Shown here: positions 5,978 through 19,818 of the stretch, one piece after another
Layout: each line of letters starts with the position of its first letter
Position numbering within the stretch: position 1 is the stretch's first letter
Virus record (IMG/VR): IMGVR_UViG_3300027906_000193
Span: 1 to 20,784 of that record
Source of the DNA: a virus
Strand: one strand, 5' to 3'
DNA: 20,784 bases
Notes under the pieces: model-generated
Told to the model about the DNA's origin: nothing
What the model saw: the letters and a program-made list of their open reading frames with translations, nothing else
Database searches by the model: none
Program-made: the position numbers and the translations under genes

Positions 5978-6337
5978 ATGAAATCTATTATTGCACTTGC
6001 CACACTGTCCGCCTTCTCTGCGACACCTGCAATGGCTGGCCCATATGTCAACACTGAAATCAACAGTGGTTGGACGGGATCAGACTACGGTGGATCCGTT
6101 ACAGACCTCCATATTGGTTATGAAGGAAATGTAGACCGTCTCGGATACTATCTTCAAGCAGGCCCAGCAATCGTCAGTCCTGATGGGGGTGATGCCAACA
6201 CTGAATTCTCCGGCAAAGCCGGTGGATCGTTTCAAGCCACTGAAGCTGTGTCCGTTTATGGAGAAATCTCTTTTCTTACAACTGACGCTGACGAAAACAA
6301 CTACGGAACCAAAGCTGGTCTTAAGTGGGCCTTCTAG
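5978..6337 (+). CDS. Small secreted outer-membrane-like (beta-barrel type) protein
   Basis: A 119-residue protein with a clear signal peptide: MKSIIALATLSAFSATPAMA, with predicted cleavage after Ala20 (AMA|GP), leaving 99 residues. The mature part alternates polar and nonpolar residues in short Gly-rich strands (HIGYEGNVDRLGYYLQAGPA; VYGEISFL; GTKAGLKWAF) and ends in Phe, as outer-membrane barrel proteins often do. I chose ATG 5978 because it gives a proper signal peptide; the frame stays open upstream to a GTG at 5924 that would add an unnatural polar leader. At under 100 residues it is shorter than a typical 8-strand barrel. Similar small proteins occur in cyanomyoviruses, from memory. It may act in the host envelope, for example in exclusion of other phages or envelope change, or be attached to the virion; this is unresolved. 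Confidence 0.75.
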   Translation: MKSIIALATLSAFSATPAMAGPYVNTEINSGWTGSDYGGSVTDLHIGYEGNVDRLGYYLQAGPAIVSPDGGDANTEFSGKAGGSFQATEAVSVYGEISFLTTDADENNYGTKAGLKWAF

Positions 6338-8411: not shown

Positions 8412-11149
8412 TGGCAGCAGTCACTCAAATGATACCTAGCTACTTAGGTGGTGTATCAAAACAAACAGACAAAAAGAAAATACCTGGTCAAGTAAGAGAA
8501 TGTCTCAATGCCTACCCTGATCCTACATTTGGATTAAGGAAGAGACCAGGACTTAAGTTCATCAAAACAATACATGAATCATCTGATACATCTTCACCAG
8601 ACTTTGCTAATGCTAAGTGGTTCTTTATCAAACGAGATAATGAAGAGAAGTATATTGGATGTATTCTAGATAAAGATGTAGAAGCAACTAACCCTATCAA
8701 GATATGGAACTCTGATGGTACAGCTTGTACAGTAACCTATCCTGATGGTGTTAACTATCTTGACACCACACGAGATAACTACGATATACTGACAGTACAA
8801 GATAACTCTGTTATCACCAATAAGACAAAGGCTATAGGTCTACAAGCTGCACCATCCTATACACTTAATACTTCAGGTACAGTAAGATTATTCCAAGTTA
8901 AGTATAGTTGTAAATATCAGGTTGCAATAAAGATAGGTGGTACTACATATGATGCTTCCTATACATCCATCACTGAGGAAGCTACGCCACCAGCAGGCCC
9001 AGGTGGAGAGTTAGTAAATAATGCTGAAAAAATTCTATCTGAATTAAAGACTGCAATTGAAGCATTGTCACTTCCAGGTACAATGACAGTCACTCAGTTA
9101 GAGGCTACATTAGAATTATCTTATGTAGATAGTTCTAGTAATCCAGCAGCGTTTGAATTATCCACAAGTGATAATCAAGGTAACGCTACTATTAGAGGAT
9201 TTACTCAACAAGTTAATGTAGTAGCTGACTTACCGGCAGATAGCTTACATAATAGAATAGTGAAGATTGTCAACTCCAATGCTGGTACAGCAGAAGATAC
9301 TTATTGGAGTACATTTGTAGCAGAGAATGGTACATCAGGTGCTGGGTACTGGAAGGAGACTATAGATCCAACTGTCTCACCAGGTATGGATAGCAGTACA
9401 CTACCACATCAACTACGTAACACAGCATTGAATACATTTGTATTTGATAAAGCTGCTTGGGTTGATAGGAAGGTAGGTGATACAACCACTAACTCAGACC
9501 CTAGTTTTGTAGGATATACAATACAACAGACATTCTTCCACAACAACAGACTTGGAATACTGTCTGAAGATAATGTAGTGATGAGCAAATCAGGTCAATT
9601 CTATGACTTTTATCATGCTTCAGCATTAACTCAAACAGCTTCAGACCCAATTGATATCAACTGTTCAAGTATTAGACCAGCTGTATTACATGCTATAATA
9701 CCAACTGCACAAGGTTTAATCCTGTTCAGTAAGAATCAACAGTTTATAATGTTCTCTGATGCAGAGATACTGACACCAACATCTTCAGTCATACGTGGAA
9801 TCTCTAACTATGAGATGGATTCTAATATTGATCCTGTTGATGTAGGTACTCATATTAACTTTGTCAGTAAGACCCCTAGTTACTCACGTGTATTCGGTAT
9901 GCAGACTAGAGGTTCTGAAGAGAGTCCTGTTGTTAATGACATCAGTAAAGTTGTGTCAGAATGGATACCAGATACAGTAACTAATCTACTCACGAGTCCA
10001 CAGAATTTCCTAATTGCTTTGTATGGTTCACTTGACAATACAATGTACTTACATAAGACTTATGTTGTAGGAGATAAGATTCAGATGCAGGCATGGTTTA
10101 AATGGGACTTCCCAGGTAATATACAACATGCTGCTGTTGATTCTGATAGTATGTGGACAGTAGTAGAATATAAAGGTAAGTATATACTAGCTAGTGCTAG
10201 TCTAACACAGACACCTGAAGAGAAGATTATTATTACTAGTGATGGTAAGCAAGTTAATCCACATATGGATTTATATGGAGCTGTTAGTTCCATGACTTAT
10301 GACGCAACTAATAATCTAACTAAATGTTATCTACCTACAGGGTATAAAGATAATGAAACTCTAACACCAGTACTAGTTATCGCTGGTAACGGTACTACTA
10401 ACTTTGCAGGTGTAACAGAGTCTGGCTTTACAATTACACCAGGCAGACCTACAGGTCAAGATCATACAACAGCTAGTCCATACTTTGAAGTACCTAATAA
10501 AGATATATCAGGGCTAACTGCTGCTGATGTAATTATTGGGTATAAATATAATTATGATGTAGAACTCCCTAAGACATACTTTAAACTTAATCCTGAAGGA
10601 ACTGTAAAAGATTACACAGCAGCATTAACTATTGCACGCATGAAGTTTGCTGTTGGTCTTTCTAGTGTTGTCAGTTTTAAAGTTAAGAGTAAAGGTTATA
10701 GAGGAGAACTAAAAGAGTTTACAGGAGATGGCTCCACTACAGCATTCAGTGTTCCATTTCCACTTAAAGAAGAGGACGGTATTGTAGTTAAACTAAATGG
10801 TGCGAAGCAAGCTTCGACAGCTTATAGTGTTACTACTACAGATGCACAAGCTACAGTTACATTTAACACTGCTCCAGCAGCAGCTTCTACAGCAGCTAAT
10901 GTTACGACACCTGCTCAGAAGATTGAGATTACAACAGATACTTGGTTTGATGTACAACCAGTACAAGATGCAGACCAGTACTTAGCAGATGATGTACCTC
11001 TAACTGAAGAGGCAGTATTCACAGTACCTCTACATCAAAAAACAGATAACTTTGACGTAAGAGTTTTCAGTAACTCTCCATTCCCAGTATCATTATCTTC
11101 AATGATGTGGGAAGGTAACTATTCACCACGATTCTACAGAAGAACCTAA
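8411..11149 (+). CDS. Tail tubular protein B (nozzle), T7 gp12-like, with inserted fibre-type module
   Basis: A 912-residue protein, larger than T7 gp12 (794). Six copies form the tail nozzle below the adaptor. Typical features are the N-terminus IPSYLGGVSKQTDKKK...CLNAYPDPTFGLRKRPG, the central propeller region with HNNRLGILSEDNVVMSKSG and ISNYEMDSN, and the C-terminus SSMMWEGNYSPRFYRR. Residues about 769-835 (EFTGDGSTTAFSVPFP ... STAYSV ... VTFNTAPAAA) are not typical of gp12. They match the N-terminal domain of the tail fibre encoded at 19823 in this window, which suggests domain insertion. Arg codons are mostly AGA/AGG (15 of 22), unlike the capsid gene. It overlaps the genes on both sides by one base (TAATG). 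Confidence 0.94.
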   Translation: MAAVTQMIPSYLGGVSKQTDKKKIPGQVRECLNAYPDPTFGLRKRPGLKFIKTIHESSDTSSPDFANAKWFFIKRDNEEKYIGCILDKDVEATNPIKIWNSDGTACTVTYPDGVNYLDTTRDNYDILTVQDNSVITNKTKAIGLQAAPSYTLNTSGTVRLFQVKYSCKYQVAIKIGGTTYDASYTSITEEATPPAGPGGELVNNAEKILSELKTAIEALSLPGTMTVTQLEATLELSYVDSSSNPAAFELSTSDNQGNATIRGFTQQVNVVADLPADSLHNRIVKIVNSNAGTAEDTYWSTFVAENGTSGAGYWKETIDPTVSPGMDSSTLPHQLRNTALNTFVFDKAAWVDRKVGDTTTNSDPSFVGYTIQQTFFHNNRLGILSEDNVVMSKSGQFYDFYHASALTQTASDPIDINCSSIRPAVLHAIIPTAQGLILFSKNQQFIMFSDAEILTPTSSVIRGISNYEMDSNIDPVDVGTHINFVSKTPSYSRVFGMQTRGSEESPVVNDISKVVSEWIPDTVTNLLTSPQNFLIALYGSLDNTMYLHKTYVVGDKIQMQAWFKWDFPGNIQHAAVDSDSMWTVVEYKGKYILASASLTQTPEEKIIITSDGKQVNPHMDLYGAVSSMTYDATNNLTKCYLPTGYKDNETLTPVLVIAGNGTTNFAGVTESGFTITPGRPTGQDHTTASPYFEVPNKDISGLTAADVIIGYKYNYDVELPKTYFKLNPEGTVKDYTAALTIARMKFAVGLSSVVSFKVKSKGYRGELKEFTGDGSTTAFSVPFPLKEEDGIVVKLNGAKQASTAYSVTTTDAQATVTFNTAPAAASTAANVTTPAQKIEITTDTWFDVQPVQDADQYLADDVPLTEEAVFTVPLHQKTDNFDVRVFSNSPFPVSLSSMMWEGNYSPRFYRRT
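10715..10915 (+). other. Region encoding the fibre-like module inside tail tube B
   Basis: This codes for about residues 769-835 of the nozzle protein. Aligned by eye to the tail fibre N-terminus, shared positions include TG-x-GS-x-T-x-F, FP, a later V-x-V, STxYS and V-x-FNTAPA. The DNA itself is diverged, so this is not a recent duplication. Confidence 0.6.
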
Positions 11150-11604
11150 TGTCCACACCAGAGCAACGAAAGGAAGACCGAACTAAAGCTAAGTTTCTAA
11201 TTAACACAGCTTGTTCTAAAAATCAAGCAGCAAAAGATTACTTATGGGATATATGTGAAGTATGGCGTCGTTTAGATGACATCTACGATGGAGACCATGA
11301 AGTAACACGAGAACAATTAATGGATGTATTTGAAATCTTATGGATTAGACTACCTACTAACCCATTCTTTGTAAGGCATCAGGACATTCTAACATCTCAA
11401 CATATAAGTATGTGGAATGCTTGGATAGCTTCTAATCTATGGGCGGGTGGAGATGAAACAGAGAGGATATATTCACATGTATGGCGTTATACTATACATG
11501 AATTGGTTCCACTAGTTGCTCTATTAACACAAGGTCATACACAAATGGCAGTAGTATCAGGTCAAGTAAGACAAATGTACAAAACTAAATTAGGAGAAGA
11601 ATAG
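11149..11604 (+). CDS. Hypothetical all-helical protein in the T7 gp13 slot
   Basis: A 151-residue Trp-rich soluble protein between tail tube B and the gp14-like protein. T7 encodes gp13 at this place, but I see no similarity to T7 gp13. Motifs of note are WDICEVWRRLDDIYDGD near residues 33-49 and a long helical C-terminal half (SMWNAWIASNLWAGGDE, WRYTIHELVPLVALL). The prediction is mainly helical with no signal peptide or membrane span. The start overlaps the preceding stop (TAATG) and the next gene begins 2 bases after its stop, so it belongs to the ejection-protein cluster. It may be an assembly or minor virion protein; that is positional inference only. Confidence 0.82.
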   Translation: MSTPEQRKEDRTKAKFLINTACSKNQAAKDYLWDICEVWRRLDDIYDGDHEVTREQLMDVFEILWIRLPTNPFFVRHQDILTSQHISMWNAWIASNLWAGGDETERIYSHVWRYTIHELVPLVALLTQGHTQMAVVSGQVRQMYKTKLGEE

Positions 11605-11605
11605 T

Positions 11606-12823
11606 ATGGGTTGGTTCGGAGGCGGCGGTAAAAGCCCTGAAGAGAAAGCAAAAGAGGAACAAGAAGAGGCATTAGAGGATCGACACGAATATAATATGGA
11701 TAATTATGACTACAATAATCTAACTGTAGATCGTAATTATGAGCAGCAGATGCTTTCCAATGAGCTGCAGCGTAGACACATTGCAAATGTTGCTGATTAT
11801 CAAGATAAGAAAGCAGCAGATTCATGGGATTATGCCATGGAGATACGGGAGGTTAAATATAACGCCCAAGTAGCTGCCTATAATAAATCCGAACAACTCT
11901 ACGGAGCACAGATCGGGTTAAACCAAAGAGCAGCAGGTCTAGCATATGACAATGCAATCAATGTAAATAAAGAACGTCAAGAACAGTTAGCATTTGCTGC
12001 AGCTAAATCTAACATAGCATATCAGAAAACACATAAAGATTTACGCTATCAACGACATCGTAATCGTTTAGGTATAGAGCGAGCTAGAGACTTTACTTCC
12101 CTACAGAAGGAAGAGGCAACATTAAAGAATCAAGCTAATAGAGCTAAGGCTGCTTTCGACAGTCAGGATATGTATGTAAAGAGCTTACAAGCTAAAGGTA
12201 AGGTATCAGCTAGAGGAGTTGCTGGACGATCAGCGGCTAAAACATATCAATCAGTTGTAGCAGAAGCTGGAAGATCAGCTGCAGCTTTAGCAGATAGTGT
12301 TACTAGAGCTGACTCTGCTTATAACCTGTCTATGTATGGTATGGATTTAGATCTACAATACAAACAGGCTGACTTTATAGTATCAGAGAATAAATTTCAC
12401 AGTGATATAGATCATGCAAACCAAAGTTATGATCTACAGAAGCAAGAAGAGGCAGCATCAAAACTAAGCATCATGCGTGCTTATGATCACGCAATAAGTA
12501 AAGTAGGATATGATCAATTCGCTGCAAACGTAGCAGCAGATGCTAAGAGGATGTCGAAACCTTCTCTTATGCCAGCACCCCCTAAACCAGATGCAGTACC
12601 TAGAGCAAGAATCCTTGATCCAATGGTTCCAATCTACGGACCAGAACCAATCGAAGGTGTCTCTTACTCAGGTGGAGCTAGCGGTGGTGGCGGTAACGCA
12701 GTTACTGGTGCTATCGGTGGAGCTATGCAAGGAGCTGCTTTAGGAACAGCTATCGCGCCTGGAATTGGAACAGCTATCGGTGCAGTTGTTGGTGGAATAG
12801 GCGGTGCTATGGGCCTCACGTAA
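11606..12823 (+). CDS. Internal virion protein, T7 gp14-like, with C-terminal glycine zipper
   Basis: A 405-residue protein, about twice the length of T7 gp14 (196). gp14 is ejected first and forms a pore in the outer membrane. The N-terminus (MGWFGGGGKSPEEKAKEE) leads into long charged helices likely to form coiled coils. The middle segment GKVSARGVAGRSAAKTYQSV resembles the core of the gp14 family. A Pro-rich linker precedes residues 363-405, a glycine-zipper stretch (GAIGGAMQGAALGTAIAPGI and on) suited to membrane insertion. In T7 the hydrophobic region is at the N-terminus, so the arrangement here is different. GGAGA (11592-11596) precedes the start at a usual distance. Assignment rests on order, composition and the central motif. 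Confidence 0.86.
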   Translation: MGWFGGGGKSPEEKAKEEQEEALEDRHEYNMDNYDYNNLTVDRNYEQQMLSNELQRRHIANVADYQDKKAADSWDYAMEIREVKYNAQVAAYNKSEQLYGAQIGLNQRAAGLAYDNAINVNKERQEQLAFAAAKSNIAYQKTHKDLRYQRHRNRLGIERARDFTSLQKEEATLKNQANRAKAAFDSQDMYVKSLQAKGKVSARGVAGRSAAKTYQSVVAEAGRSAAALADSVTRADSAYNLSMYGMDLDLQYKQADFIVSENKFHSDIDHANQSYDLQKQEEAASKLSIMRAYDHAISKVGYDQFAANVAADAKRMSKPSLMPAPPKPDAVPRARILDPMVPIYGPEPIEGVSYSGGASGGGGNAVTGAIGGAMQGAALGTAIAPGIGTAIGAVVGGIGGAMGLT

Positions 12824-12847: not shown

Positions 12848-15661
12848 ATGGCAAATTTTTATGCAAGAGATAGGGGGTATAGTGATTATCACTTAGAACT
12901 CCCTATCGAAAAGATGGCTCAAAAGGAGCTAAAGAAGGGTGCAGACAAGATAGAACAGATGAAAGCTAATCAAGCTTTAATCAAAACCCAAAAAGCTGAT
13001 TACATCAGTGCTTTAAATACTAAGTACAAACATGAGCGAGCAAACCATAAAGAGAATTGGAAGCTTGCACAAGCTAATTATGATCTAATCTTTGAACAGG
13101 AACAACAAAATGCTCAAAGAGAATTCGAGAACCTACAAGTAAGCAGGGGAAACCCTAGCCCTCAACAAATACAAAATAAAGGTTTAGGTTCTCTGATGGA
13201 GATGGCACCTGCCTTAATGGAAATGGTGGGTAGCTATGTTGAACAAGAGAAGGCTTTTAGAAATAAAGCTACAACCAACCTGATAATTGAGAAGAATATA
13301 TCAGGGGCAACAGCTGCTAAATGGGCAGAGAATAGAGAACTAATAGCTTCTAACTCATTTGAAGCTAAGATATATGCTCAAGAACAGGCTAGGATGCTCG
13401 GTGTAGAAGTAACTGCAGAAGAGATGCTGTCTATCATTGAGCTGTATGGTGAAAGGGATATGGCAGCTATGACTGCCTTTGCTCATACCTCAGCACCACT
13501 CTATCAAGGATTCTTAGCTGATCCTGATAATCAATCCATGGAGATTGTATTTGATGGTGGTGTAACAAAGACTTGGGGAGATATACGTAAAAGTAGAGAT
13601 CCTGCTGAATTCGCTGCAGCTCAGGCTCAGATGCGTGGCCACTTCATGGAGAAACATCAGATCAGTATTACTGATCAGGTGCCTGGAATACTTGGACCCA
13701 TCGGTGAGAACATAAGGAGAGTAGAAGCTCAAGAATCAGGTAGATTCCATAACCAATTAGAGCAGTACCGTCAAGATTATCTAGAAACTCACGACCTTAC
13801 TAGGTTTAATAATGCAAGAGTTGAAGGACCTGCCGCTATGGCATCCTTCCAACAACTGTGGGCTTATGAGAACCAAACATATGATGGTAAGCCAAATCAC
13901 AATGGTGCATTCAATATGATGACTTCAAACCTAAGAGAAGGTTTAAGGTTAGGCACCGTTAATTCAATTGATATAGAGAATTTCAGGCAAGCGAATAGTG
14001 AACACATGTCTCCCTGGAAGGAGGATGAAATTAATGCATTAGCAGATCTAGCTCAAGTAAAAGAGTTTCAAAAACAAAACCTAGAACAGAGAGTAGAGGA
14101 GGCAAGACAGAGTAGAGGTGGGGAAGCAGCTGAAGATTTCTTCTGGTCCCCAGATGGTATGAATGGCTCATTGAAAATACCTTTAGAACAATGGCGTGCA
14201 CAGATGGCAGATGCAGGTCTTTCTAGAGATACCATTGCTAAAGTCATATCAAACACACAATCCTCTGGTGGCCTTAAAGCACAGATGCCAAGTGAGAGAT
14301 ATAAAGAAACCTTTGATGCTGGTGAAGCAGATGCTATACTATCTATACGTGCCCAAGTAGCTAAGAATAATGAAATTGTACTAGGGGATAGTGAAAGTAT
14401 AAAGAATATTCCAGGCTATAATATGTTAGAAAATAGAGTAAAGACATATTATAATCAAGAGTTCAGTAGGCTATTAAGGGAACGTGGTGACGGTAATATT
14501 TCTAGCATCATGCAAGATGCAAAGAATAATACTGTAGCATGGTTAGAAGAGAATCCAGATTATGTCTCGTTGAACCCACCTAAGAGGATAGATCCTGTTA
14601 CAGGTGAAGAGATAGCATTATCTAACAAAGAGAGAAGTTTCACACGATTCCAAACACAAAGCAGAGAGAAGCCATGGTTATCAATGGCTATAGATTCATT
14701 AAATGATACACCAGGAGTTAATCCTGCAGCTAGAATTGAAGGAATAGCTGATGGAACCTATGATGCTGTTATAGCACGTGAACATATCACGAGCTTCTAT
14801 CAAGGTGGAAGTTGGAATGTACTAGCATTTGAGAACAGTTCTATAGGAAGAGAATTAGCTAGAAGAACAGGTTTACCAGCTAGTTATATTCTAGATATAC
14901 ATGCTCAAAAATACGGTTTAAATCGTCCACACAAAGATGATGTATTAACTAGAGAAGAGAAGAACAAACTACCCACAGGAATTCAACAAGTGTTAGATCA
15001 TCAAAGCAGTGTATCTGCAGAAGTAGCTAGAGCTGGTATGCAACCAGAGTATAGACAACTGTCTCCATATAGGCAGGTGAACAACCCGACAAGTGCATCA
15101 ACAATAGTTGGTGGTTTTGATCTTAGTTCATCAGACACACCAGTAAATGGGCAAGCATTAGCTTTCGCAATTTTAGGTGGAGAAGGAGGTTGGGATTCGA
15201 TTAACCCAGGAATTGTGGATCGTAGAATAAGTAAAAGTACAGCAGCTGAAGCTTGGAAAATCGCAATGTCATATACATCTGGCTCCAGCGCAATGGGCGC
15301 TTTCCAACATATGCCATCCATTAACAATAAAAATGTATTGAAACAGAGATGGGAAGCTGCTGGATTAGATTGGGAGAATGATCTATTCAGCCCAGAGAAT
15401 CAAGTAAAAATGAATTGGCACTTCATCAAATCAATTTACCCAGGTGTCGAACAGGATTTAGCAGCAGGTAATTTGAGGAGAGTAATGTCTAAACTAAGAG
15501 GAACTTGGCCTTCCATACCCGGAGGTAGTCAAGTAAATGCACATTCAGCAAGCTTTGAGGATAGATACTATAAATATTTGAAAGGTTATCGATTGAATGA
15601 TTATGGAACTGGTATGCCATCTAACTACCGAGGTGGGTATAGAGGAGCATTAGAAGTATGA
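12848..15661 (+). CDS. Internal virion protein, T7 gp15-like, fused to a lambda-R-type lytic transglycosylase domain
   Basis: A 937-residue protein; T7 gp15 has 747. gp15 is part of the internal core and, after ejection, of the channel across the periplasm. The N-terminal ~125 residues are charged helices (coiled-coil type). A long helical middle follows, with motifs such as YQGFLADPDNQSMEI. Residues about 768-915 look like the lambda endolysin R family (GH104): catalytic-type Glu779 in GGEGGWDS, SSAMGAFQHMP (813-823), LFSPENQ (846-852) and GTWPSIPGGSQ (885-895). The lambda R counterparts are SEGT, STGAGRYQ, DFSPKSQ and IWASLPGAG. This domain would cut peptidoglycan during DNA entry. In T7 that job belongs to a different domain in gp16. 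The stop overlaps the next start as ATGA. Confidence 0.88.
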   Translation: MANFYARDRGYSDYHLELPIEKMAQKELKKGADKIEQMKANQALIKTQKADYISALNTKYKHERANHKENWKLAQANYDLIFEQEQQNAQREFENLQVSRGNPSPQQIQNKGLGSLMEMAPALMEMVGSYVEQEKAFRNKATTNLIIEKNISGATAAKWAENRELIASNSFEAKIYAQEQARMLGVEVTAEEMLSIIELYGERDMAAMTAFAHTSAPLYQGFLADPDNQSMEIVFDGGVTKTWGDIRKSRDPAEFAAAQAQMRGHFMEKHQISITDQVPGILGPIGENIRRVEAQESGRFHNQLEQYRQDYLETHDLTRFNNARVEGPAAMASFQQLWAYENQTYDGKPNHNGAFNMMTSNLREGLRLGTVNSIDIENFRQANSEHMSPWKEDEINALADLAQVKEFQKQNLEQRVEEARQSRGGEAAEDFFWSPDGMNGSLKIPLEQWRAQMADAGLSRDTIAKVISNTQSSGGLKAQMPSERYKETFDAGEADAILSIRAQVAKNNEIVLGDSESIKNIPGYNMLENRVKTYYNQEFSRLLRERGDGNISSIMQDAKNNTVAWLEENPDYVSLNPPKRIDPVTGEEIALSNKERSFTRFQTQSREKPWLSMAIDSLNDTPGVNPAARIEGIADGTYDAVIAREHITSFYQGGSWNVLAFENSSIGRELARRTGLPASYILDIHAQKYGLNRPHKDDVLTREEKNKLPTGIQQVLDHQSSVSAEVARAGMQPEYRQLSPYRQVNNPTSASTIVGGFDLSSSDTPVNGQALAFAILGGEGGWDSINPGIVDRRISKSTAAEAWKIAMSYTSGSSAMGAFQHMPSINNKNVLKQRWEAAGLDWENDLFSPENQVKMNWHFIKSIYPGVEQDLAAGNLRRVMSKLRGTWPSIPGGSQVNAHSASFEDRYYKYLKGYRLNDYGTGMPSNYRGGYRGALEV
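15150..15593 (+). other. Region encoding the lambda-R-like peptidoglycan-cleaving domain
   Basis: This codes for residues about 768-915 of the gp15-like protein. The order and spacing of four lambda R landmarks are kept: Glu at the start, a Ser-x-x-x-Gly-x-[YF]-Gln loop, an [LD]FSPxxQ helix start and a W-x-S-[IL]-PG segment. Lambda R cuts glycan strands as a transglycosylase with a single essential Glu, which would be Glu779 here (codon 15182-15184). Confidence 0.72.
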
Positions 15662-18600
15662 CATATTCACAAACAGATAGACTAATCGAAGAGGCAAACA
15701 GGGATCAAGAGTATCACGATCAAGTAGCTGAAAACTACAGACAGGAGCAGGCAGCCGCAGAAGCTGCCTCTCAGCTCATACCTTCAGCTGCTGGTAAAGC
15801 TGGCCCTGACTTCATACCAGGCGCTTCAGAACAAGCACAAGGTCAACTTGATGCATATGAAGAAGATAATAAGAGTTGGGTTCAACAGTCTTTAGATAGT
15901 CAAGAGAATGCTTTAGATACAAAAATCTCTGTAGTACAAGGTCTAGGTGATACAGCTGTCGGCCTATTAGGTATGGCAGAGAACGTAGCACTACGTGGAC
16001 AACCTGGAGTTGTAGAACAATACGTTAAACCATTCTGGCATAAACATAACCCACAATCTGACAATGGAGCACACCATGCTGTACGTCAGATATCAGGCGT
16101 TGTCTTACCTTCACTACTAGCACCAGCAGCTATTGTACCTAGATTAGCTGCTGCACCATGGGCTGCTGCTCTACCAGGAGCTGTTAAGACTACAGGTGCA
16201 ATTGCAGCACGGTTAGGTATTGATACAACTATTGTCGCAGCGTCATCATCTGCTGAAGATGAGAACGCAGCTAAGGCATTAAATGATGCATTTGGTTGGG
16301 ACTTACCTTGGGCTACAAGAGAAGGTGCTGGACCTGACGAGAGACGTAAATACCAGCTATATGAGAACATGGGATTTGCCGCAGCAGGTGAACTCATAAC
16401 AGGTATTTTTGCTTTAAGATCTTATTACCAAGGAGTACCTAAGAAGAATCCATTTGAAGCCTCATGGGTACATGAATATGATGTACAAAGATGGAAAACA
16501 GCTAAAGAACCAGTAGCACCTGGTACAAAAGTTGAATGGGATCCTGGTCTAGTAGTAACACCTAAGACAGATGAAGCGGCTGCAGCATTAACAAGGAATG
16601 CTGATGAAATTGCGATGCAGGCGAGAAGCCCTGCTATCAGACAGATTGATGATCAGATTGATGAATTAGGTTTACTTGATGAATTAGGTGAAGCTGATGA
16701 AATGAGGTTAGCTGAATTAATTGAACTACGTAAACGTACAGAAATTGATGAACTACCACTTGATCCGGTAACTAAACACATTGATGAAGCTGCTCAAGTA
16801 CGTAATAATTCACTAGCTGATGAAGCTGCTGAACGTGCGCAAACTAATCAAGGTGAATATGATCCAATCCTACATGAACCTGCAGAAGCACAAGCACGTG
16901 GAGTCGCTAACAGTGGTGTTGCAGATCCTCTAGGAGCGGTCTATGATCATCATAGGATACAACATAACCTGAACACTACTAACGGACGTGCTAGAGCTGT
17001 TATGTCTACTAAGGGTATGCGTAAGTTCTTCAATGCTGCAGATGGTACAGAAAGAGGAGAGATCCTAGATGAAATTGTTGCTGCTGTAACTCCTGGTAAG
17101 GACATGGAAGCAATGATTGAAGGTACTTGGAAAGTAGTACCTGAAGAATTCCAAGCTGCTGTAGATCAAGTAGCTAGAGATATACATAATGTAGAACCTA
17201 AGCAATTTGCTGCTGCTGTTAATGACTTAAAGAGGAAGGTGTTGAAAGGAGCTGAATTCCTAGATACTGATGACTTCCTTGTATATGAAGCAGCTGTAAA
17301 GCAAGTACTAAGAGATCTAGATCCAGATCACATCAGAGCCTCTGCACTAGCAGTACAACAAGCTGCGGATGCAATAGCTAGTAACGCTAAGGCAGCAGTT
17401 ATATTAGATGATGTAGTAGAGACATCAAGACAACAAGGCATGTTATTCGAGAATCTCGGACTTGTAGCTAAAGAAACACGTGCAGTACGGTACCTATGGG
17501 GCTATACTGGTAACCTGTTAGACATGGCTAAGAGTAAGAAATTCAACGTACAACAACTTAGAGAGTTCCAAGAGGGATTCGCTAAGAATCTAGCTGATGC
17601 TAAAAACTCTGCTACTAATTTCGTAGAAGAAATGGAACGTGTTGCTCTATTTGAACCTGAATACTTAGATGCATTCATTAAAGCATATGACCTAACAGAA
17701 GGTAATGTAGATGATCTACTTAAGCTGCATAGATGGGCAGAACAGAATGTAAGTATTTCTAAACTGATTTGGGATAATGACCCAGCAGTTAAGAGTCTAT
17801 TAGTACAAGGTATACATGGTGTTCGATACAACAGTATGTTGAATGGTCTAGCACCTTTAAGAGCTTTTGCTGGTAACACTATGCTTACAGTAGGTAAGCC
17901 TGTTTCAGTATTAGCTGGTTCTGCATTCAAATCAATGACAGGTGATGCATCTGCTGGAGCTATAATCAAGAGAGCTTTATATACATATGGTGGTGTCGTT
18001 GAAAACTTCCAACGTGCATTTAAACATATGCATAGAGAGTGGAGTTTTGCTGTAGCTAATCCAGAACAAGCTATGATGCGTGGTCGTCATGATGTCAAGT
18101 TTGCTCCTAGTGATAACTTTGAAGTACTAGAGAGTATGGCAGAAGGATGGCGTGCTGAAGGTAAGCATGGTCAGCTAGCACTGCTTAACATGGCAAGAGC
18201 TACATCATGGTATAATAACCTGAGTATTAACCGTTGGGGTATTAATGCACTACACTCCATTGATGGGTTTACGAACTCCATGATGGCTAGTGGTATGGCA
18301 CGAGCTAAAGCTTATGACCAATTACTTGATAGTACTAACGGTGTAATCAGGCAAGGTGACTTCGATAAACTACAGAAGCAACTGTATGATAATTCATTCG
18401 ATAGAACTGGACTACTAACTGATGAGGCAGCTAAACATGCTTCACAAGAGATTGCTCTTAACTTAGATAGTAAGACAGTTAAAGATTTAGATAGATTAAT
18501 TGCTAGGGTACCTATCCTAAAACCTTTATTCATGTTCCCTAGAACTGGTGTAAATGGCTTTAAGATGGCCTGGTCATACAACCCATTAAGTGCTTTACCT

Positions 18601-19818
18601 GAAGCAATGGGTAAAGGTAATAAAGCATTCAGTGCTAAAACACCACAAGAAGTGATGGAAGTACTACGTACACATGGTATCACTGATGTAAGTGATCCTA
18701 TAGCAGCACTTAAATCACTCCAAGCAGAGTATCGTGGTCGTCAGATTATGGGATCTGCAGTTGTAATGGGTGCAGGACTGATGGCAGTCAATGGAGATCT
18801 AACTGGTAGTGGTCCAGTAGAAGCTTCAGAGAAACGTAAGATGATGGCTATGGGTTGGAAGCCTAATAGCATAAGATTAAACGGTGTATGGTATAGCTAT
18901 AAAGGTTTAGAACCTTATCAGCAAATACTTTCACTGACAGCAGACGTTGTATGGAATGGGCAACGTGCTGATTCACATTGGATGGAAGATGGATTATGGA
19001 AAATTGCTAATTCAATTTCAATGAACGTAACCAATCAAACCTTCCTTAGCGGTTTAGCACCACTTGCAGGACTCATCGGTCGTGATGAACGTGTAATCAA
19101 CAAGTTTATTGCAGGATGGACAGACCCATTAGTACCATTCTATTGGTCAGGCTCACGTAGTATCTTAAATAATATCATCAGCCCACAACTGAAAGATGTT
19201 GAAAATGATGTAATGTCATTCCATAAGAACTATAGTAAGTTCCTATTTGCTGATAGTGACCAATTAATGGATCAACTTGATGTATATACAGGACGACCAA
19301 TCAACTACCATGAGCCTATGACTGCAGCTCTAAATGGTTTACTACCATTCTTTAAGAGCAATGGTGGAACTGAACCATGGAGACAGTGGTTACTGAATAC
19401 AGGGTGGAATAATTTAAATACATTACGTGTCAACAGACTGACAGGACATAAACTAACAGCTAGAGAACGTCACTTTGTTAACAATTGGGTAGCAAAGCAT
19501 GGCGGACTACGGTTACAAGTACAGAAACTGATGGCTGACGATAAACGTGGTAACTATACTAAGAATTATGTAACTGCAAGAGGTCAGAAGAAACAGAAAG
19601 AGTTTCCAATCAGTGACTCTTATCTCCATAAAGAGTTAGATCGTATACATACGGCTGCATTTAACGCAGCTTGGAGTGCTTTACAACTAGAGAATCAGTC
19701 TTATGCAACCTTAGATGTATTAGAAAAGAATAAGAAAGGCCTCCTAAAGAGAGGTTCTAATCAAGAAGCCGCCCGTGTTCAATCACAAATAGATGACTTA
19801 CTGAAGTTAAACAGATAG
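15658..19818 (+). CDS. Internal virion protein, T7 gp16-like, without N-terminal transglycosylase
   Basis: A 1386-residue protein, near the 1318 of T7 gp16, the largest ejected core protein, which inserts in the inner membrane. Length, order and a mostly helical, Ala-rich composition support the call. The N-terminal 60 residues are charged and Gln/Glu/Ala-rich (YRQEQAAAEAASQLIP). They show no Glu-Ser and G-L-M-Q-type transglycosylase motifs as in T7 gp16, so the enzyme domain is absent here. Hydrophobic stretches occur near residues 141-200 (SGVVLPSLLAPAAIVPRLAA and on) and about 1026-1042 (SAVVMGAGLMAV). A repeat-like acidic stretch around 310-350 contains tandem DELGLLDELGEADEMRLAEL. The conserved-looking C-terminal half includes FMFPRTGVNGFKMAW. 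ATG overlaps the preceding stop as ATGA. Confidence 0.88.
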   Translation: MTYSQTDRLIEEANRDQEYHDQVAENYRQEQAAAEAASQLIPSAAGKAGPDFIPGASEQAQGQLDAYEEDNKSWVQQSLDSQENALDTKISVVQGLGDTAVGLLGMAENVALRGQPGVVEQYVKPFWHKHNPQSDNGAHHAVRQISGVVLPSLLAPAAIVPRLAAAPWAAALPGAVKTTGAIAARLGIDTTIVAASSSAEDENAAKALNDAFGWDLPWATREGAGPDERRKYQLYENMGFAAAGELITGIFALRSYYQGVPKKNPFEASWVHEYDVQRWKTAKEPVAPGTKVEWDPGLVVTPKTDEAAAALTRNADEIAMQARSPAIRQIDDQIDELGLLDELGEADEMRLAELIELRKRTEIDELPLDPVTKHIDEAAQVRNNSLADEAAERAQTNQGEYDPILHEPAEAQARGVANSGVADPLGAVYDHHRIQHNLNTTNGRARAVMSTKGMRKFFNAADGTERGEILDEIVAAVTPGKDMEAMIEGTWKVVPEEFQAAVDQVARDIHNVEPKQFAAAVNDLKRKVLKGAEFLDTDDFLVYEAAVKQVLRDLDPDHIRASALAVQQAADAIASNAKAAVILDDVVETSRQQGMLFENLGLVAKETRAVRYLWGYTGNLLDMAKSKKFNVQQLREFQEGFAKNLADAKNSATNFVEEMERVALFEPEYLDAFIKAYDLTEGNVDDLLKLHRWAEQNVSISKLIWDNDPAVKSLLVQGIHGVRYNSMLNGLAPLRAFAGNTMLTVGKPVSVLAGSAFKSMTGDASAGAIIKRALYTYGGVVENFQRAFKHMHREWSFAVANPEQAMMRGRHDVKFAPSDNFEVLESMAEGWRAEGKHGQLALLNMARATSWYNNLSINRWGINALHSIDGFTNSMMASGMARAKAYDQLLDSTNGVIRQGDFDKLQKQLYDNSFDRTGLLTDEAAKHASQEIALNLDSKTVKDLDRLIARVPILKPLFMFPRTGVNGFKMAWSYNPLSALPEAMGKGNKAFSAKTPQEVMEVLRTHGITDVSDPIAALKSLQAEYRGRQIMGSAVVMGAGLMAVNGDLTGSGPVEASEKRKMMAMGWKPNSIRLNGVWYSYKGLEPYQQILSLTADVVWNGQRADSHWMEDGLWKIANSISMNVTNQTFLSGLAPLAGLIGRDERVINKFIAGWTDPLVPFYWSGSRSILNNIISPQLKDVENDVMSFHKNYSKFLFADSDQLMDQLDVYTGRPINYHEPMTAALNGLLPFFKSNGGTEPWRQWLLNTGWNNLNTLRVNRLTGHKLTARERHFVNNWVAKHGGLRLQVQKLMADDKRGNYTKNYVTARGQKKQKEFPISDSYLHKELDRIHTAAFNAAWSALQLENQSYATLDVLEKNKKGLLKRGSNQEAARVQSQIDDLLKLNR

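Follow-up and report, generated by a model that had tools for sequence, protein, structure and literature searches.

Lysozymes on internal virion proteins are known from SP6 gp36, PhiKMV gp36, and K1-5 Gp38 (PMC5380687), and the presence of a lysozyme on core proteins has been termed a swap in a review (PMC8954989). In K1-5 Gp38, which is encoded by the gene preceding the gp16 equivalent, a Phage_lysozyme domain (GH24) occupies residues 776 to 910 of 982. The gp15 equivalent of the Pectobacterium phage PhiM1, the OEP (PhiM1_42), ends in a lysozyme-like domain (residues 718 to 903), as described by cryo-electron microscopy of the virion core (PMC11440229), so the C-terminal position of a lytic domain on gp15-type proteins is already known. 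T7 has its wall-cutting domain, of the SLT type, at the N-terminus of another ejected core protein, gp16. Here, we describe a metagenomic virus fragment of 20,784 bases (IMGVR_UViG_3300027906_000193; this whole stretch is called the window) in which a 937-amino-acid (aa) gp15-like protein ends in a domain of the type of the lambda endolysin R (lambda R). We consider it likely that this protein forms the ejection tunnel of a T7-like cyanophage and has an exchangeable C-terminal cassette that degrades the cell wall at entry via Glu779. Like the T7 SLT domain, the cassette would be the wall-cutting part of an ejected core protein, but the carrier (gp15 instead of gp16) and the enzyme family (lambda R type instead of SLT) differ.

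The domain extends over approximately residues 765 to 911 (positions 15140 to 15580, plus strand, marked + below), as delimited by phrog and profile matches and by the predicted fold. It matches phrog_90, labeled "endolysin" (E, 4.3e-11; profile positions 675 to 806), and lambda R matches the same family (E, 3.9e-62; positions 651 to 811). As phrog_90 also includes the gp15-like protein of phage S-RIP1, we compared the domain with lambda R directly. An 11-sequence profile of relatives that left out lambda R aligned to it with an hhalign probability of 94.6 (E, 7e-8), and two lambda R sequences were its only matches among 177,635 PDB sequences (E, 0.005). The control values for the same profile were 2.6 for the T7 SLT, 0.2 for the K1-5 GH24 domain, which belongs to a different family, and 0.2 for the PhiM1 OEP, whose membership of this domain family was not supported. 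The similarity to lambda R is thus above that to these other lysozyme families, although the separation from SLT is modest, as an SLT cassette from a near relative (contig L009) aligned with a probability of 83.5 and with the catalytic Glu in register.

Residue Glu779 (codon at 15182 to 15184, +) aligns with the catalytic Glu19 of lambda R (PDB 1AM7 and 3D3D; GH104 type) and is invariant in the 11-sequence family alignment. The GRYQ, FSPKSQ, and WASLPG motifs of lambda R are also shared, and in the same order of elements, as SSAMGAFQ (15284 to 15307, +; STGAGRYQ in lambda R), LFSPENQ (15383 to 15403, +), and GTWPSIPGG (15500 to 15526, +). The reading frame, its coordinates, Glu779, and the three motifs are all as described in an earlier sequence-only reading of this DNA, whose proposal of a lambda-R-like domain at the C-terminus is borne out by the shared phrog_90, the significant profile match, and the fold match to a tail hub lysozyme domain given below. 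The roughly 150 residues are a confirmed lambda-R-type (GH104-like) domain. Identity to lambda R is only about 20 to 23%, and lambda R is a free 158-aa enzyme of late lysis, while the domain in the window forms the C-terminal end of an ejection protein of 937 aa. Given the alignment of the L009 SLT cassette with the catalytic Glu in register, the lambda R type and SLT belong, as distant relatives, to one lysozyme-like fold superfamily. Lambda R itself is a transglycosylase. The "non-homologous swap" of the sequence-only reading is therefore too strong in its first word, but the family does differ from the T7 SLT.

Other searches were less informative. Pfam gave a weak SLT match (E, 0.029) and NCBIfam gave nothing for the domain; neither collection has a model that matches lambda R itself, so we do not count the Pfam result as evidence against the assignment. 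A single-sequence phmmer search of PDB found nothing real, nor did a four-sequence profile without lambda R, and 11 sequences were needed. The match of a five-sequence profile (A2) to lambda R (E, 1.7e-46) was set aside as circular, with lambda R inside the profile. With the patterns used, 84,980 prokaryote genomes were scanned and no relatives of the domain were retrieved.

The domain as modeled by AlphaFold2 (AF2; pLDDT, 78) has its best fold match in the tail hub lysozyme domain (residues 56 to 265; PDB 8KEA) of the Anabaena myophage A-1(L), with a Z score of 13.1 and a root mean square deviation (rmsd) of 2.8 over 149 residues, followed by transglycosylases with Z scores of 6.6 or less. 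This hub domain, which belongs to a contractile tail and has no reported activity, also matches a lambda-R-inclusive profile (E, 1.5e-10). Outside contig L001, a close relative of the window, the nearest sequence relatives (31 to 33% identity) are baseplate-region proteins of cyanomyoviruses, annotated as "GH104" in DSL-LC02 and as "tail lysozyme" in Sf-FS3. There the domain is internal to proteins of 350 to 560 aa whose genes adjoin those of the baseplate hub, whereas in the window it is C-terminal. That the nearest relatives are found in these proteins hints that phages with different tail types may have exchanged the domain in hosts that they share.

The carrier (12848 to 15661, +) is identified by its reading frame, the homology of its body, and, tentatively, its predicted fold, and it has the position of gp15, as its gene sits between a gp14-type gene and gp16 in the order nozzle, internal proteins, gp15, gp16, and tail fiber. 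The gp14-like internal virion protein (11606 to 12823, +) is recognized by phrog_20153 (E, 1.6e-36), phrog_15746 "internal virion protein" (E, 3e-4), and position. Among the homologues of residues 1 to 467 of the body are the gp15-like proteins of S-CBP3, S-CBP1, and S-CBP4 (hhalign probability, 98.8; E, 4.6e-17), while a search of PDB by sequence gave no match for the gp15-like protein. The AF2 model of the whole protein has low overall confidence (pTM, 0.32), and compared with 952 chains its top three matches are T7 gp15 structures (Z, 7.2 to 7.7; rmsd, about 9); the PhiM1 OEP is also among the fold matches listed. By identity in 50-residue windows, the body is a fast-evolving segment of about residues 1 to 748 (12848 to 15091, +), common to the window, L001, and L009. 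Together with a small open reading frame (ORF) at 11149 to 11604, it is the fastest-diverging part of the module, with about 50% identity to L001 compared with 83 to 88% for gp12 and gp16.

The occupant of the C-terminal position was surveyed in 80 gp16-anchored contigs and named phages. L009, with a gp16 89% identical to that of the window, has a homologous gp15 body up to about residue 750 (28 to 84% identity in 50-residue windows), past which identity falls to a background of 16 to 29% and an SLT_3 domain (E, 5.5e-13) stands at exactly the place of the lambda-R-type domain. In L001, the core of the domain is 94 to 98% identical to that of the window and is the best-conserved part of a gp15 whose body is only about 50% identical. 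An SLT is found at the gp15 C-terminus of S-CBP3 and two contigs (L013 and L021), SLT plus M23 in S-CBP4 and, with a weak M23, in L047, and a glucosaminidase (GH73), with M23 detected or not, in S-CBP1, DSL-LC07, S-SRP01, and several contigs. M23 alone occurs in L014 and S-CBP2, and Hydrolase_2 occurs in S-SBP1 and, below the curated cutoff, in S-RIP2, while the tail-lysozyme-like matches of P60, Syn5, and S-CBP42 are all below that cutoff. Our own profile detects a GH104-like domain clearly in S-RIP1 and more tentatively in S-TIP37, L016, L031, and L033. P-SSP7, P-SSP2, and many marine contigs gave no lytic domain at the gp15 C-terminus, although one may have escaped detection. Related cyanophages hold other wall-degrading families at this place, so that the enzyme changes while the position stays.

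A second close-range replacement was observed within a clade of DSL-LC07-like GH73 carriers, where L047 (L047:4336-7674) has SLT instead of GH73 and retains an M23-like end. The gp15-like C-termini of three further contigs (L018:5006-7828, L025:5249-7972, and L036:5122-7935) have faint traces of lambda-R-like motifs and no clear catalytic Glu, and they are possibly decayed cassettes. The window domain is not unique, as the S-RIP1 protein SWVG_00006 (787 aa, in the gp15 position) also has a GH104-like C-terminal domain (hhalign probability, 98.0; E, 1.7e-13). SWVG_00006 is a phrog_90 member over its full length and is annotated as a "hypothetical protein". It differs from the window protein in that the domain is diverged, the bodies have no similarity detectable by BLASTP, and a 263-aa ORF precedes gp16.

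Changes of the cassette were counted on a quick, unrooted tree built from 52 gp16 proteins. With eight classes, 15 changes are required, or 11 without "none detected"; both counts are approximate, as classes were assigned from the Pfam matches of representative proteins and by similarity, and one branch of the tree (S-CBP2) is long. GH104-like and SLT cassettes occur together in a fully supported clade made up of the window, L001, and L009. Between the window and L001, 46 of 52 four-fold sites are identical in the domain compared with 76 of 135 in the gp15 body (P = 3e-5), while gp16 (440 of 543) does not differ significantly from the domain (P = 0.26). A recent exchange of the cassette by these two relatives was rejected, as the silent-site divergence of the domain is like that of gp16. 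The cassette diverged like the genome backbone, with the gp15 body as the odd part. No recent jump between the window and L001 is needed; the replacement lies between these two and L009.

It is an even call whether T7-like phages of cyanobacteria more generally use the gp15 C-terminus as a dedicated slot for an entry enzyme, repeatedly refilled by unrelated wall-degrading families, some of them related to cyanomyovirus tails, as a modular site of adaptation to the host wall. In the literature searched, which left most subscription journals outside its scope, we found no report of cyanopodoviruses swapping gp15 C-terminal domain families, even within a close clade, and none of a GH104-like domain at this C-terminus. 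One ejection protein with about six wall-cutting families at the same position, including near relatives with 89% identical gp16 but different enzymes, provides a comparative system in which the matching of entry enzyme to host wall and the tolerance of the tunnel for its cargo can be tested. It also suggests functions for "hypothetical proteins" of the isolated phages S-RIP1, S-CBP1, S-CBP3, S-CBP4, and S-SRP01.

The sequence-only reading had the enzyme move from gp16 to gp15. The window indeed lacks the T7-type arrangement, with its SLT at the N-terminus of gp16. The gp16-like internal virion protein (1,386 aa; 15658 to 19818, +; phrog_6651, E, 2.4e-213), whose start overlaps the gp15-like stop by 4 bases, matches no Pfam family at an E value of ≤10 and has no SLT or GH104 match, while T7 gp16 as a positive control gave SLT at residues 15 to 127 (E, 1.7e-31). 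The earlier statement that this gp16 has no lytic domain agrees with these searches. The comparison with T7, with its SLT at the gp16 N-terminus as opposed to the lytic domain on gp15 in the window, is what speaks for a move of the function in the lineage of the window, but we regard such a move as very unlikely. T7 is the sole carrier of a detectable T7-type SLT among 71 gp16-type proteins (0 of the other 70), and the gp15 of many relatives, other than the P-SSP7-like marine group, carries a C-terminal lytic domain, as do the gp15-type proteins of K1-5 and PhiM1. With none of the other 70 carrying the SLT and nothing to polarize the change, "moved" is unsupported; the gp15 C-terminal position may be ancestral in the group, and an unrooted tree does not give the direction. 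As for which of the two proteins bears the enzyme in cyanopodoviruses, the survey proposed in the sequence-only reading gave enzyme domains on gp15 in many and no detectable T7-type SLT on the gp16 proteins sampled.

Apart from its origin, the domain could have another role than cutting the wall at entry. It may have kept the lambda R fold and lost peptidoglycan cutting, serving as a structural part of the ejection core that contacts peptidoglycan or DNA. The homologous A-1(L) hub domain without reported activity would fit such a role, as would the motif traces without a clear catalytic Glu in the three contigs above and the lysozyme-like domains of PhiM1, which line a groove that DNA density follows (PMC11440229). 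We nevertheless consider this unlikely, given that Glu779 and the other family-invariant positions are intact and that the domain is the part of gp15 best conserved between the window and L001. That the domain acts mainly as a late endolysin, within the whole protein or released by an internal start or by cleavage, seems highly improbable. Lambda R is an endolysin and no separate endolysin gene was recognized in the 20.8-kb window, but the domain is fused to a core-protein body of 750 residues, and in the related cyanopodoviruses S-CBP42 and S-CBP2 the annotated endolysin is a separate gene that follows the tail fibers, in a region beyond the window. A free enzyme made from an internal translation start was discarded, as the internal starts at residues 715, 731, and 744 lack a convincing ribosome-binding site. 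Some points do weigh against an entry enzyme on a gp15-like protein: the fold match to T7 gp15 is of modest Z score, the Foldseek E value of the A-1(L) hub match is 0.0098, lambda R is absent among the fold matches listed for the domain model, and a separate endolysin could lie outside a fragment of 20.8 kb.

An ejection protein with an entry cassette would work as follows. The virion would package the gp15-like protein in its core and eject it before the DNA. T7 (PMC8954989) and PhiM1 (PMC11440229) are the analogues for this ejection and for the periplasmic tunnel that the protein would then build. The C-terminal 190 residues would act as the cassette, cutting glycan strands beside the forming tunnel with Glu779 as the catalytic acid/base, and the local hole in the peptidoglycan would let the channel reach the inner membrane. 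As the C-terminal region of T7 gp15 swings during ejection (PMC8954989), we infer that an enzyme at this end would come to lie on the tunnel's outer side or on its distal part. Replacement of the cassette would presumably be of advantage. PhiM1 differs from the window in having an endolysin-like domain in its gp16 equivalent as well, and its OEP domain is not detectably of the same family.

The rest of the window codes for the remainder of a T7-like cyanophage structural module, with portal, scaffold, capsid, nozzle, internal proteins, and tail fiber besides the gp15-like and gp16-like proteins. Immediately 5' of the structural genes (2 to 1488, +) are a fragment of the large subunit of ribonucleotide reductase and a class Ia beta subunit. 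Between the scaffold and capsid genes, a 119-aa ORF (5978 to 6337, +) belongs to phrog_417 (E, 1e-44; function unknown) and has a signal-peptide-like start and a C-terminal Phe as in outer-membrane beta-barrels; a secreted envelope protein would be odd within a capsid module. Last, the nozzle-type protein of L001 (L001:628-4098) has 1,156 aa compared with 912 in the window, apparently as a result of inserted segments.
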